A program made the position numbers and the translations under genes. Of a DNA stretch of 64,000 nt, positions 23,828 through 56,603 are shown piece after piece. Each line of letters begins with the position of its first letter. The stretch's first letter is position 1. Origin of the DNA: Laccaria trichodermophora (Eukaryota > Basidiomycota > Agaricomycetes > Agaricales > Hydnangiaceae); NCBI GenBank assembly GCA_018417955.1, contig JACTVC010000036.1, positions 310,001 through 374,000 of the forward strand, given 5' to 3'. The notes beneath the pieces were generated by a model that did no database searches, was not told the DNA's origin, and was given only the letters and a program-made list of their open reading frames with translations.

Positions 23828-24069
23828 TGGCTGGCCGAATGAGAAATACGGATGGCTGTTGAAGTCGGGAATATAGGCGAGATTGCGTCCGACGTTGTCA
23901 TGAGAGAGATTGGCTTTTTTTCGAGCGGAGTAGACGAAGAGCTACGAAGAGATCTCGGACGCGCAGACGGTTGCAAATTAAGCGAGATCGATGAATAGTT
24001 GAAGAAGCGGCCTCAAGTTGGGCTCAAGTTGATCTGGTTGAGCGGAGTTCAAAATACACAGGCTGAGTT

Positions 24070-24185
24070 AGTCCTGTTTTTACCGCGCCATCCGAACCGT
24101 GTCAGAAATTGCTTATGTAAAGTGCGGACTTTGAAACCGCGTCGCGTCAATTTTGAGGAACGCCCTCAGAACTCTCGACGCGTTT
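24070..24185 (+). repeat. Left terminal inverted repeat of the DUF6589/helicase element
   Basis: Begins AGTCCTGTTTTTACCGCGCC and ends CTCTCGACGCGTT. Pairs with 30076-30200 on the opposite strand. It probably also contains the promoter of the DUF6589 gene, whose ATG follows after 65 bp. Confidence 0.82.
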
Positions 24186-24249
24186 AAACATTCTTAACAC
24201 TGCCTACCACCCCAAATTCCATTCATATTCCATCATAACTTCAATCTAA

Positions 24250-27200
24250 ATGGATAGCAACGTTCGAATTGTCAGATCCTTCAAGAAATTGAAACCAATC
24301 GCTGAAGTACCAGAAACTCCGGAGTTTATCACACGCTTCCTACCATCCCCATCGAATCCTCTTCTTCCAACATCTCGCAATGACCAACATGGGTCGTCGC
24401 ACACTACACCTCCATTCCTCGGCTCCCCATTCAACAATCTTGGTTCCCTTGGTGAACCTTCAGGCCAACCTCGACTCATCCAACCACCCCAAAGCGATGC
24501 GCAGAAGCTGTCCTCCAAGTTTGAGAGAATGGAAACGTTTCTAAACGACTCGGGATTCGATTCAGTTGGTGATTTTTTGAAGATTTTATTCTTCAATCCC
24601 AACCACCTCTCCGGAGAATCTGACCCTCGAGGCTCTTGTCATGCGAAGGCCGTTTCTCGTTTTCTCCAGGGACGAAATAAGATCAAGATGTCCGATATAA
24701 TTCCCCTCATCTACAAGCACAAACACAGCGCGCCCTCGCCGGCTTCACCATTTTATTCTGAGCGCCATGCCTCGTTCTCACCTTCAGTCTCTCCTGGGGA
24801 AATCTTTCACGCTCGTCCGTCGTTGTTTTCATGGGCAACAAATCTTGTTGCTGATCATGTTCACCGCGAGATATATGCGCTTACTGTTAAGGACGACGTT
24901 ACTCACCTTCGAGCATCGACAAATGGCCGACGCGCAGATCACGTTAACCTAGTAACCTGGGAAGCTCTCAGTAAATTCAGTTTTGCTGGACTTTGCGACA
25001 AATACAAAACTCGTGCACCTGTTTCTTGGTATCTCACTGAATCGATGACTGCCTCCCGCAAGAACGGCATTGTCATTTTAAAGAAGCGACGCCCACATCC
25101 AATCGCAAGTATTTAATTAATGTGTGCATCGTCGTTCAGTGCTTATTTATTTTCTTAGGTTCAAGTCGGCGCCATCAGCTCGTTTATTCTAACACGAAAC
25201 CACTACGCAAACGGAGATCTTGCGATGGTCTTATCTATACGGCATTTCGCAGCCAAATCCCACATCGATGTCAAGTGCGTCTACAGCCGATTCGGAAATA
25301 TTGTCAGCGACACAACCGCACGCAAGGCTCTCGACTCTATGACAGGTTCAAGTCTTGCTCTTCTACGAGCTTCCGTCAAGGCTGCGACTGAACGAGGAGA
25401 GACAGAGTGGTGTGTAGTCTTGGATAATGTCCAAGAATATTGTCCGGTATACGAAGGAGGTATTGCTCGCCAAAGTATACTCAAAGTCGGGACCGCAGCA
25501 ACCGCAATCCGCCTCGACGATTGCAAATCTGGTGCTTTCGACTTACAGAGTCATCTTGCACGTGTCACTCAGAAAAAGCGGAAGACTATGACGGTTGAAA
25601 CTCTCAGGACCGACATCGATTGGACTCACGTACACACCGTTCAATCGCTACACTGGGCTCGCACTCTCGTCAACTACATCCCACAACTTAAGCACATGTC
25701 CAAGGAAATTTCAGCTAGATATCGCTCAGAGCCCATTGCAAAGCATCGCATGCGTGAAGGACGAAAGACTGTGGTACAGCCATTAGGGACTAATGCTGAA
25801 AGAGAGGTCGAGACTCAAGGAATGGCACGAGCAATCATGGACTTCGACGAACAGATGGGTATCGATTCCAAAGCAGCGGATAAACTTCTCTCTTGGAATC
25901 GAGGCGACGGTGCTTCATACGCAACAGCCCTTCGACTACAAAAATATTTGTGTTCTATTCCAGATAATCACAAGTCATTCCGAAATCGCCTTTCTACGCC
26001 GGAAATTTGGCATGCAAAATCCACAATGGTCAACTCAATTGCCGCAAATCATTATGGACCAGCAACCTCACAAGATCCTTCGTCGCTTTCTCGTTGCTCA
26101 GGCGCCGCTGGTTTCAAACGGCCGACCAACCTTAGTAGCTGTGACTTCTACCCCACTGTGCGAAGTATGACTTTAATCTGGGAAGCACATGTTCTTGATT
26201 GTTGGAGGTGCGTCTTGAATTCCATCCTCGCTTTACAAAATTCTGACATCAGATGCCTGCAGAGTATTTCTCGAGGCGAAACCAGATCTTCTTTCGCATT
26301 TTTCTGACCTGGCAGAAAAAAAGGAATTGCCTTCCCTCGAAACCTTGTTAATTCACGCAAATGTTCTTGTGAAGCGTTACGCATCGCAAGATGCATATGA
26401 ACAGGCCCTATCTCTTGCTGAATCAAAGGATGCGCCAGATCATATGAAAGTTCCCTTTGGCTCTGCGCTTTCAGCTACAGGCTCGTCGGATGTTGCGACA
26501 GACATTTTACAGGCTATTCCAACCGAGGACGTTCCAAAGGTCCATCAAGAGGCAGATAAATTTGACGGCGATAGGGTCCTTGCAAATAGCATTCTCTTTC
26601 TTCAGGATTTTGGCTGGTGGACTGAGATTTCTTATGCCGTTCCAGAGGGGGATATTGGGCGTGTATTTGAGATATTGAAGGTGCAGTAATTGCAAGTTTT
26701 TCGATCAGATTTCGTGTTAATACTTTGTCTATAGATCTGGATATTTAGCTTTGCTGGATCGTCTCATCAAAACTACATGAACTACCTTCTGGAAGTGTAC
26801 TGTCTCCTACGATACGAGGCCTCTCAAGATCTTCGCGATGCGATCTTGAATAACTGGCTGGTGAATATAACTGGCGAGCTCGGAAAGTGGATTGAAGCTG
26901 ATTTGCTTCAAGAGCATTATAACCGTTGGCTTGAGGACATGGTCAAGAAGCGAGGCGGGGATTTTGACGACAACTTTTATCGACATACTCTTTCACCCAA
27001 TGTTGATCATTTCTTACGAATTAAGGAAGAGATCGAGAATGCTTTCTCCTTGAAGAGCCGTGGAAAATCACATACATCCCCTCATCTTCGTGATGAACTC
27101 CGACTTCTCCTTGCCTTGTTCACGGAAGAAAATATCCATCTTTTCTTCACAGGAAGGACACTGGGACATGCGGCAATCAATCAATTCAATGTGGGATATT

Positions 27201-27682
27201 CACGACTTGACGGTGGCAAGCTGGATGACTTTATTAGCAAGTCAATGACCTTTGCCGACGTTATTGCAGATATTATTCACGTCTGTCAAGACAACACTGT
27301 CCCTGACCATGAACCGCAAGATCCATCTTCTCCCGATGATACTATCAACCCTAGCCCACCTTCTAGCGAAAGCGAAAGTTCCTCCGAGTTGCGCACCACG
27401 TCCAAATTTCATTCGAATCCCTCATCGACGACTTCATCCTCATCGCAAAGTACACAATCTGAAGACGAAAATGAGGATGACCCTAGTAACACCCATCTAG
27501 TTAGTGGTTCTGACCATGACATTTATCTCTTAGACAACCAGTTAACTCATGATACCTGGTACGATCAAGAATGTGGAGAGGATGAAGAAAGCTCAAGTGA
27601 TGATGATCACGTCGACGACTGTGGAGCTCTTTCTGATGGTAATAATAGTGTTGATGAAGAAGATATGTATAATTCAGAATAG
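24250..27682 (+). CDS. DUF6589-type protein, candidate transposase
   Basis: Large protein of about 1,100 residues joined from exons 24250-25105, about 25154-26200, about 26255-26683 and 26733-27682, with all joints in frame. The N-terminal part holds the conserved FLNDSGFDSVGDFLKILF and RFLQGRNKIKMSDIIPLIYKH region. The centre has IGAISSFILTRNHYANGDLA, GNIVSDTTARKALDSM and the DN motif (VVLDNVQEYCPV, about 25430) typical of this agaricomycete family. A helical second half follows, then an acidic Ser/Glu/Asp tail. From memory the family is DUF6589, of unknown function and abundant in mushroom genomes. Its place inside long inverted repeats and its expansion suggest a transposase; the Asp of LDN could be catalytic. 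It looks intact. Confidence 0.8.
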
Positions 27683-27708
27683 AATAACAGTGTCTAAAGC
27701 AACAATTA

Positions 27709-30002
27709 TTAGTTTCTTTTCGATCTCCTCAGACCTTCATTCTCTTTTCCACTTCCACCCCCAGACGATCCTTCTACAAGTGCATTTCGGCGGGTGCGGT
27801 ACCGTGGACCATAGTCTTCAAGGACTTGCGCAACACTGGGCTGAGCAGCTCTAGGAGCTCGTCGTCGCCGCTTTGCGGTGTTCGTCATATCTTCAAGAGC
27901 TTGGCGCTTGCGAGCTGGAAATGCATTGAGTTGTTGTTCAGGAGGTTCGTTAACGATTTCTTCAGAGGGTTCGGAGTCCGAGTCAGATGAGATTGTGGTG
28001 CCAGAGCCGTCAACGTTAATCGCTCTTGTGGCCTGCCGTTTTTCGCGTCGCTTGGCCAGAGTAAGTTCTTGCGCAGTATTTCGTTGAACTGCTATTGATG
28101 TTTGGATTTCAATGACGGAGTCGAAGAGTGCTGATCCATGACTTGAATAGTAGGCCCATGAGTCGTGAAGAACGTGGCCGAGATCTGATGGAAAATGAAT
28201 GATAAGCAATGTGTCAAGTATTAAAGACACGATGCGAGCCGGAAAGTATGACGAGCGTGGTCGAAAGGCATGGTTATTGGAACGACGTTCAATTTGGCGA
28301 ATGGATTCACCGAAAGTGATTAAATGTTTTTCTGCGGCTAATCGTTCCTTTTTCTTTAACTTGTCTTTTTTTGGCGTTGACGATCTAGGGATGGCTCGAG
28401 GCACCATCAATACAGGTAACAGGGCGGAAGATGCAGGCAACAGTGATGGTGGGAAAACAAGAGTGTCGAGTCCTCGTCGTGCTAGACAGAGCGAGCAAGG
28501 TAAGGAACGAGCAGCGGCAAGACAATCCAGGCGAGATAAATCAGGACGAGATGGATCCAAAGAAGGATTCTCATAGCAACCGTTGATGCAGGCGATGTAG
28601 CAATGTTATTCCTGGATAACAAGAGCTTTCGATCTATCAAGAACGCGTGAAGCCTTGACTTTCTTTGAGCGAGTCTTGGGTTGAACAGAAGATGTTATAA
28701 GAGCTAGAAGCAATCAGCATCATTGCAAGCGTAAAATTCTGGGACTTACATTTGAGGTACGCTCCGCGTCTTTGATTACACTCCGATGTGCAAAGATAAC
28801 GCCGCGTCCAATCGTTTTCGGATCCCTTCCAACACGGCCTTTCTCCTGCCACGACTCGTTGAACGTCGAACCGAATCCAAGCGAAAGACTGTCAAGAAGA
28901 GACTTTGCGTTGAGCCCATTCGAAAAAGCGACGGTTGAAATAACAATTTGTAGGCGCGGTTCGGTCTCAAGAAGTTCAATGGTTTGTTTGTTGTATTCGG
29001 CAGGACATATGCTATGATAAACCCGAGCTCGAACAAGTTTATTAGCCCCATCAGGTTGCAGGCGCCAGATATATGCAAAAACGTGGGAGACTTGATTGAC
29101 AGTTCGACAGTGGATTATAGTCTTTCGTCCGCTGGCGAGGTACGGAAGAATGTCAGGAAACTTGTCGCCGTTGAGCCCGTGGGTGAGAAATTGGACAGTG
29201 AACTGTGTATTCGGACGCTCATTTGACCTTCGGATGAGTGTAAAGTTGCCCTTGAAGAAACCGAGACTTTTACACACAGAAATTGTTGGTGGCCCAGGCT
29301 CGAGCGTCGCAGTAAGACCAACAATAGATATTGAAGAAGGAAAGCGGCCACGTAGAAAGATTCCAATGGTCCCAAAGGCTAGACGAAACGCAAGACCCCA
29401 TTCATTGATCAAATGGACTTCGTCGACAGAGGCGACTAAGATGTTGGCCCGAAAGATAGGGCATTCCGTAATTTCTTTCCATTCCCTGTCGTGTAGGTGC
29501 TCCGGGTCCACACAGATCACCTGCCACCTCTTGCACTCTTTGATTTCACCTGCCAAACGGATCCCAGCCTTTCGTGCAGCACTCAGAGTTTCTTTGCAAT
29601 ATGAGAACGTGGAAACGTTGAGTTTCGAAAGTTCGTGAACCTAGCCCAAAGCTTACGAGAAGAACAACGAGAATTGACAGATAAACATACAATATTGTCT
29701 GCAAGACCCTTTGTTGGTGTGATCACGATCCCGATTGGCCTTTTCCGAGTTGGAAGGCCTGCTACATATGCTTCGGGGTGTTTGTTATACTCCAGAAGTA
29801 CTAGAATGGGGACCGAGAATGCCGCCGATTTTCCGTCGCCAGTGGCGGTACAGCAAAGTACATCTTTTCCATCCAGAATAGCGGAAACAAGATCCAGTTG
29901 GACCGCATGCAGCCCGTTCGTCCAGGTTGGTATGAGTTTCTTGACGATGGTGTTGATGGTCTCAAGGCCTGCATGATCCTGCCAGCGGAGTACTTGAGGC
30001 AT
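27709..30002 (-). pseudogene. RecQ-like DEAD/DEAH helicase, one in-frame stop
   Basis: Start MPQVLRWQDHAGLETINTIV at 30002. SF2 motifs in order: TATGDGKS (motif I, about 29850), TPTKGLADNI (Ia), VDEVHLINEWG (II, DEVH, about 29420), GLTATLEPG (III), STVAFSNGLN (V) and QEKGRVGRDP (VI, about 28830). After an intron at about 28753-28700 the frame runs VKASRVLDRSKALVIQE, hits TAA at 28608-28606, and then continues HCYIACINGCYENPS...CSLC, which is the Cys-containing C-terminal region of the family. A Lys (AAA) is expected there, so a single change to TAA interrupts it. The remainder to 27709 is a charged tail. The truncated product keeps all helicase motifs, so partial function is possible. Its 3' end lies 26 bp from the DUF6589 stop. 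Confidence 0.8.
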
Positions 30003-30075
30003 TATCGACTGTTCATGTAGAGTTCCAGGTCATCCAAGAAGTAAAATGAGGTAACAGGAGAGGTCTACAAGAAAG

Positions 30076-30200
30076 AACGCGTCGAGAGCAATCTGCAAGC
30101 GGGTAATATTGACGCGACTAGGGCGGACCGGAGGTTCAAAGTCCGCACTTTACATAAGCATTTTCTGACGCGGTTCGGAGGGCGTGGTAACAAACAGACT
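30076..30200 (-). repeat. Right terminal inverted repeat of the DUF6589/helicase element
   Basis: Complement of the left repeat, with two small insertions (for example an extra CTCCGGTCCGCCCTA-like segment). The helicase ATG lies 74 bp inside it, mirroring the other end. Confidence 0.82.
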
Positions 30201-30896
30201 TCATACATCGTGAACCAAGGTACGACTTCACATGTATCGAAGTCTGTCTAGGAGAGACTAAGGCTGAGTTGAGCTGAGTTGTGTCCGCTCTAATCTTTGA
30301 AGCGCGGGGCCGCCTTGAGCGCTTGAGCTCCCTTGAGCCTTCGTCCATTTGGTCGTCCATCCGCATTCTTGTCCTTGTGTGAATCATCCCAGGGGCCAAA
30401 TAAGTAAGGCGTCAGGCTCTCGCAGTCCCGATATGAGTGAGAGAGCAGGGAGAGAGCAGGGGCATACTTATCCGAGAACTTGTATCAAATGAACGACGAT
30501 CTTGCAGACTGTTCCGAGTCGTCGCCAGAACGCGGTTCGCGCCTGACAGGTGTGAAGAAATAAATGTGCTATTAGTTGTAACTCTCACTCCCGTCCCTTT
30601 GTTCTACTCCCTCTATTTGAATTGGCAAACCCCGTCCGGGATTTACTCGTCTCAGAACCTCCGAGACCCCACCTTATCGATATGGCGCGCACTCAATGGT
30701 GGTGTAAGTGTTTCGGAACCAGGAGTCGAGAGTCGAGAAGACATCGCATCACCTAGAATGCCTTGTAGCGAGTAATAACAGCTCATACTTCACATCGCAA
30801 GGTCACTACAACATCCTATCTGGGAAAGCGCACTATATAGAAAATCTGTCACACGTCGAGTGCATTGGAATGGTGCTGTTCTCGGTGTACGACCCC
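30201..30896. other. Interval between TIR element and GST gene
   Basis: No supported gene. Contains small direct repeats (GAGAGAGCAGG at about 30440, GAGTCGAGA at about 30725). Short frames only. Confidence 0.45.
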
Positions 30897-55105: not shown

Positions 55106-55164
55106 CAGCTTCACGCGTCACGCAACGCGCACCGCGTTTCCACTGATTTTATGGTCTCAATGGC

Positions 55165-55520
55165 GTGAAATCGACGCATTTTATCATGGACGACACGTCT
55201 GTATTATCGAACAATGTCAAGGCACTTCAAGAAATCCGAGACTTGCCTGTTGCGCTGCTCAAACCAGCATTTGACGTTCTAATACCTGCCGACCGTGCTC
55301 CAACAGCTGCTTTCTGGGCGCTGTACAATGATGAAGAGAGGAGCATTGGAATGCGAGCATGCCTTCTAATCTGGACTGTAACTAACTTCAAGCTTGTTCC
55401 TCAGGAGTTCCAACTGGAGGCTACCATTGCAATCATGACTGGGAAGGACTCGCTCGTGGATGTCGGTACAGGCTATGGGAAGACTCTCTGCATGATAATA
55501 CCTTGTCTTGGATCCAGAGA
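55165..55520 (+). pseudogene. RecQ-like helicase, 5' fragment
   Basis: Reads MDDTSVLSNNVKALQEIRD, then a conserved N-terminal region (FQLEATIAIMTGKDSLVDV) and helicase motif I GTGYGKTLCMIIPC. Family similarity stops right after motif I, where the internal deletion begins. The frame stays open to 55599 in sequence that is DUF6589 read backwards. Confidence 0.8.
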
Positions 55521-55539
55521 ACTTATCTGTGATTTTTTC

Positions 55540-56603
55540 TCCTCTAAAGCGACTGCAGGTGGAATTTGCCCAGAACGAATGCGTGAATTAGTGAGCTGAT
55601 CGTTGAATGTTGGGATAGCGTACTTTGACAAGTCGTCGGGATCGCGCTTGAGCTGCGTGAGGTAGACATCTTCATGAAACAGAAGATTACCTCAAACTGT
55701 TGCTTCTTCAATAGTTGTTGCTTGGATTGGGTATTGCTCTGTTACGTAGCCTTCAGGCATAGCGCATCGGGCTTTGTGTTGGAGGGAAGGATGTTTGGCG
55801 TATGATTTGAAATGTTCGGAGTACTTTGTGAGGACATGGACAATGACAATTGAAAGTTGGTACTGAACAAACTCAAGCCGTCGCCTAGTCGGCCGTACAT
55901 CGCGATTAAAGTAATGATTTCCAGAGCGTGAGGTAACATCCATCTGTTCACTCTTTCCTTTCCTTCCTCGTGTGAGTAGATAGCTTGCAGCATTTTTGGG
56001 AGGTTTTCGTTTTCTTGCTTGAAAAGCTCGTTTCGGTATCCCCAGTACCCTAGTTTTGAGTTGTCGAGTATGTCGAGTACAATGTCGAAGGGACTCAAAC
56101 AGCCGTCACGCAAAATGCTAAGGGCGTCCTGGATTCGTTGTTCACGCGATTTTGGGGCGTCGAGATGTTGTCGTGCTTTAGCCTTTGAAAGGTCCGTCGT
56201 GCGCAGTGGGTACGTCAAATTTTTCAACAGGAGGCTGTGATTCGAGATTGTCAAATGAAATTGTCCTACACATAAAATACATTCGACGTTAAAGAAAAAC
56301 GCAATGATTAATATGCCCGAACTCGTCAAAAGAACCCCCGGTAGCTTCCTCCCTTCTTGATGTCAAAAATGTATCGGGTGTCGATGTTGGGGTAAATGTG
56401 AAAGAAGTTGGTGGTATGTAGGGGTTTGCGGTGGTCAGAGGATTGGTGTCTCTCGGCGTAAGCTCGGGTATTGAGGGAGACGCAGAAAATTTGCTAAAAC
56501 CGAGGTCGGAAGCTAGAGGATTCGCTTTTGAAGGTTTTCGGGTTTTCTTCGTCGGTGCGAGTGTGGCAGACGCCAAGATATCGGCTGCGCTTCTGGGTTG
56601 CAT
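55540..56603 (-). pseudogene. DUF6589-type protein, 5' fragment
   Basis: Start MQPRSAADILASATLAPTKK at 56603, an intron near 56290-56230, then RIQDALSILRDGCLSPFDIV, LDILDNSKLGYWGYRNELF and, after further exons, a part reading NLLFHEDVYLTQLKRDPDDL followed by SKYAIPTFNDQLTNSRIR. The last similarity is at about 55575. The first half resembles the equivalent region of the 24250-27682 gene (FLNDSGFDSVGDFL..). At least one intron joint is unclear. Confidence 0.72.

Follow-up and report, generated by a model that had tools for sequence, protein, structure and literature searches.

We analyzed a 64,000-nucleotide stretch of the Laccaria trichodermophora genome (assembly GCA_018417955.1, contig JACTVC010000036.1, positions 310,001 to 374,000 of the forward strand), called here the window, in which positions are counted from the first letter. 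The window carries a 6192-bp unit (24069 to 30260) in which a gene for a DUF6589 protein and a gene for a RecQ-like helicase converge. We consider it highly probable that this unit is an autonomous or recently autonomous DNA transposon of the AcademH type, a group with which it was compared by published description only. The DUF6589 protein very probably serves as its DDE transposase; the helicase is a maintained part of the element.

The unit begins with TAGTC, ends with GACTA, and is flanked on both sides by the 9-bp sequence AGGCTGAGT, a perfect target site duplication (24060 to 24068 and 30261 to 30269). An earlier note on this DNA had placed the borders at 24070 and 30200. The left border was correct to within 1 bp, and the right border lay 60 bp short, because a 54-nucleotide (nt) hairpin and a further 13 nt lie outside the long inverted repeat. 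That repeat and the TAGTC terminus, with no hairpin, make up the left end (24069 to 24135, + strand); the right copy of the repeat lies at 30135 to 30200 on the − strand. The arms at 24070 to 24135 and 30135 to 30200 are 88% complementary without gaps over 66 nt, and similarity extends further once the arms are shifted by 12 bp, so that the repeat length of about 115 bp given earlier is a fair estimate. Two opposite-strand genes do lie between the repeats, with matches to PF20231 (DUF6589) on the + strand and to DEAD and Helicase_C on the − strand. A scan of the window for TAG...CTA ends with 9-bp repeats recovered the element and two other matches, which we do not claim, since shuffled sequences (n = 20) gave a mean of 0.6.

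To look for a second copy, which the earlier note had called for, the assembly (77 contigs; 59,027,671 bases) was searched with each end of the element. There were at least 40 matches to the left end (40 of 81 candidates scored) and at least 41 to the right end (40 of 143 candidates scored); because the two ends resemble each other, some of these are the opposite end of the same copy. Ends were paired by eye at 21 further places. We took 20 of these, leaving out C14:459958, and with the window element this gave 21 copies, picked by a match at both ends independently of their duplications. All 21 start with TAGTC and end with GACTA. Identical 9-bp duplications flank 20 of them, and those of the remaining copy, L077, agree at 8 of 9 positions. 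Besides the window element, one copy, L080, is full length with both genes and is 83% identical to it across 5797 bp. Internal deletions have reduced 18 of the 21 copies to 1173 to 3246 bp, and the last one, L073, has 6619 bp: a deleted copy into which another element is nested. The joined flanks of L079, the only copy checked in this way, gave 10 matches, two of which were its own flanks. The best match, C34:832960-833130, crosses the junction with all 171 bases aligned (93% identity); it is a paralogous empty site within repeated sequence. The many copies, their duplications, and this empty site support the conclusion that the unit is a mobile two-gene element.

The copies differ in several other respects. 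Sixteen of the 20 copies L069 to L088 are internally deleted derivatives of 1.17 to 2.0 kb, and this set contains at least two subfamilies, distinct in the inverted repeat and in the hairpin arms. The element nested in L073 (920 to 6358; C35) is a Copia-type retrotransposon, named by eye from its reading frame, with identical 230-bp direct repeats. The right end of L061 has several C-to-T and G-to-A changes of the kind that methylation-linked decay would give.

Mushroom genomes contain many members of DUF6589, a family whose function is unknown, and we found no paper naming this family in the literature searched. Three + strand pieces of the unit matched PF20231. They fall within a gene model (24250 to 27682) of four exons (24250-25108, 25166-26207, 26263-26680, and 26735-27682) joined by three GT-AG introns, which encodes 1088 residues without interruption. 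The earlier note had proposed that this protein is the transposase and that an RNase H-like fold be looked for. Structure prediction for a DUF6589 homologue gave a fold similar to those of the Hermes and P-element transposases, with an RNase H-like core and a helical insert between the second D and the last E. These D, D, and E residues are conserved among DUF6589 relatives; the candidate catalytic codons in the window are D at 25423, D at 25906, and E at 26912 (+ strand). E689 was rejected as the third catalytic residue, which was moved to E752, because R takes its place in 28 of 30 distant relatives. A profile search against PDB sequences gave no match at an E value of ≤1, and Foldseek alone gave no significant match. 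From the predicted fold and the conserved residues, we conclude that DUF6589 is very probably the DDE transposase of the element. Elsewhere in the assembly, the DUF6589 protein at C20 matches one from Laccaria bicolor with 96% identity across 76% of the query length.

On the − strand, the DEAD and Helicase_C matches mark a superfamily II helicase core at 28750 to 30002, modeled as two exons (30002-29691 and 29640-28750), with the 3′ part of the gene lying beyond the model. Its best match to RecQ structures had an E value of 1.6e-15. Against TIGR00614 (recQ_fam), it had an E value of 2.4e-20 and a score of 72.8 bits; since this is under the curated cutoff of 219.8, "RecQ-like" is a fair description and "RecQ" is too strong.

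Selection on both genes was assessed by comparing the window element with L080, L081, L024, L033, L082, L084, or L091; dN/dS was counted by the Nei-Gojobori method over in-frame stretches with 60 or more aligned residues. Ratios were 0.07 to 0.27 for the DUF6589 exons and 0.05 to 0.13 for the helicase exons, compared with 1.37 to 1.79 for a wrong-frame control on the same DNA (exon 2). L024 and L033 overlap as parts of a single locus, and dS is above 1 in several comparisons, which makes the ratios rough and not independent. Exon 1 of L080 contains one stop codon. By this sequence comparison, both genes are under purifying selection.

We then asked how often DUF6589 genes elsewhere in the assembly have a helicase neighbor. 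All 61 DUF6589 rows were merged into 35 loci, 24 of them with a summed score of at least 100 bits, and were compared with 69 helicase-query matches. A helicase match lay within 10 kb of 15 of the 24 strong loci (15 of all 35), where chance would give about 0.017 per locus. Nine of these pairs are divergent and six are convergent. Reading of C20 added a further convergent pair, with a Helicase_C frame after DUF6589 on the opposite strand, for a total of 16 of 24; the eight remaining loci are on C11, C13, C18, and C5 (five loci). The C20 and C29 helicases had no further partner among 30 DUF6589 loci for which sequence extended only about 1.5 kb beyond the match. Helicases of distant pairs are 25 to 34% identical to the window helicase over short stretches. 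That the pairing persists through this divergence and a change in gene order speaks for joint action of the two proteins. Purifying selection and this recurrent pairing support the earlier suggestion that the helicase is a component of the element, and a maintained one.

Termini were sought for the C11/C5 pair (L020/L021) and the C33/C22 pair (L011/L012) without a settled result. Within the window itself, a + strand frame with a stretch like helicase motif I adjoins a − strand frame at 55147 to 56362, and a 57-bit DUF6589 match lies at 55569 to 55916; this region is probably what remains of another, different pair of DUF6589 and helicase genes. In the C4 copy of a C29-type element (C4:587162 and C4:596427), the genes are 8.7 kb apart rather than ~2.1 kb, and this spacing suggests a nested insertion.

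The hairpin beyond the right repeat spans 54 nt (30194 to 30247), has 20 base pairs, and lies 13 nt from the terminus. Folded as single-stranded DNA, the right end of the window element had a z score of −3.89, which none of 200 shuffles equaled. L080 has a similar right-end hairpin (z score, −3.81), and the left end (24069 to 24150) has none (z score, +1.38). All 30 right-end loci that were cut out, of at least 41 right-end matches, contain the hairpin. With L088 and a second L059 entry, in which the outer arm is damaged, these make 32 entries. One part of the arms varies: it reads ATATAT/ATATAT in 17 of 32 entries and ATATTAT/ATAATAT in 11, ATACAT/ATGTAT (in the window) and ATATGAT/ATCATAT occur once each, and pairing at this part is incomplete in L045 and L049. 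Across ten distinct hairpin sequences, 97.9% of the pairing cells were paired, versus 22 to 43% when slid. Both sides changed at only two pairs, and 45 of 500 shuffles reached the covariation score; the covariation is therefore suggestive and not decisive. A distant family on C29 and C4 has ends TAGGCTCG...GAGTCTA and the duplication GTTCTGGAT, the latter taken from one copy. It has hairpins at both ends, with z scores of −6.0 on the DUF6589 side (from C4) and −4.0 on the helicase side (from C29); in the C4 copy, the sequence on the helicase side diverges before the end. The descriptions of AcademH consulted here, taken from citing papers, say nothing of hairpins adjoining the ends, and we found no report of an Academ hairpin in the literature searched.

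The small number of arm changes, together with the shuffles that attain the covariation score, leaves appreciable room for a hairpin without function, whose arms stay alike through copying from one to the other during DNA replication. We regard this as possible, with some doubt, given the hairpin in every right-end locus cut out and the hairpins at both ends of the distant family. More speculative, and rather unlikely, is an asymmetric, helicase-driven route in which the element's own RecQ-like helicase would peel off a strand, the hairpin would form, and the DDE transposase would recognize the folded single strand. Such a route would join to a DDE enzyme the hairpin end recognition of Helitrons and IS200/IS605 elements.

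AcademH DNA transposons reportedly go back to Kojima in 2020 (Mob DNA 11:15). Where it deals with them, one paper gives target site duplications of 9 or 10 bp for AcademH and 3 or 4 bp for AcademX and relates the difference to the encoded helicase or nuclease (PMC10045372). Another describes AcademH as low-copy elements of Basidiomycota, Ascomycota, and Mucoromycota (PMC10799480). Of 1,938 fungal Academ copies, 1,568 (81%) are described as having domains, DEAD and recQ_fam among them, and copies are frequently annotated as host genes (PMC6416283); the part of this account used here gives neither termini nor a duplication length. To the extent of these accounts, the window element agrees with AcademH in its duplication (9 bp in 20 of 21 copies, 8 of 9 in one), in its encoded helicase, found also in L080, and in its basidiomycete host, and with fungal Academ in its DEAD and recQ_fam domains; a DDE-type RNase H-like transposase is also predicted. 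The 9-bp duplication and the helicase, in place of 3 to 4 bp and a nuclease, led us to reject AcademX. The earlier note had proposed a new type of DNA transposon. We do not support this, because a helicase and duplications of 9 to 10 bp have been published for AcademH and every AcademH feature that we checked is present here. The assignment of DUF6589 as the transposase and the hairpin ends are possibly new knowledge.

Other placements were weighed against AcademH. The transposases of hAT elements (Hermes) and P elements share the predicted RNase H-like core, in which a helical insert separates the second D from the last E. Their usual target duplication is 8 bp, not 9 bp, on which ground we excluded membership, and no helicase gene is known in them. 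The C/DxxH motif that KolobokH, hAT, and P transposases have between the second D and the last E was seen in no more than 2 of 60 DUF6589 rows at any one column (P0006 residues 451 to 752), a count that depends on the alignment. DUF6589 might instead be a DDE transposase unrelated to Academ, in a separate, unnamed superfamily that arrived at its helicase and duplication length by convergence. Three points count for this: the likeness to Academ is one of published features; the literature searched does not name the family; and PF20231 is the only Pfam match in the DUF6589 protein P0006. We still hold it improbable, given that the helicase, its RecQ-family type, the 9-bp duplication, and the fungal host all fit AcademH and Academ as far as the published accounts at hand describe them.

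KolobokH, the other lineage of fungal transposons that has a RecQ helicase, is a very improbable home for the element. As described in the part used here, its helicase coding sequence lies downstream of that for the transposase domain (PMC9587614), whereas the window helicase is a separate, convergent gene on the opposite strand. The rarity of C/DxxH in the alignment may also count against KolobokH. The target duplication of Kolobok is TTAA, in contrast to 9 varied bases here. That two host genes came by chance to lie between unrelated inverted repeats, a caution that applies to any single locus, is scarcely credible in view of the second full-length copy with both genes and the ends shared by 21 copies.

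For the AcademH-type element, we propose that DUF6589 would bind the ends, that the D/D/E site in its RNase H-like core would cut them, as fold and conservation suggest, and that it would join them to target strands at positions separated by 9 bp. Supplied by the element itself, the RecQ-like helicase may open or remodel the ends or the joined intermediate, a role to which pairing and selection point. Speculatively, the right-end hairpin is a probable recognition or processing site for DUF6589 or the helicase. We infer that movement may be replicative or helicase assisted, as suggested earlier; the data fit cut-and-paste movement equally well.

If DUF6589 is a transposase, many supposed host genes of mushrooms would be re-annotated. 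If the asymmetric route were true, the combination of a DDE enzyme, hairpin end recognition, and a helicase would be a novel form of transposition. With its end hairpins and paired helicase, the element offers a compact, concrete system for asking why certain DDE transposons encode a helicase of their own.
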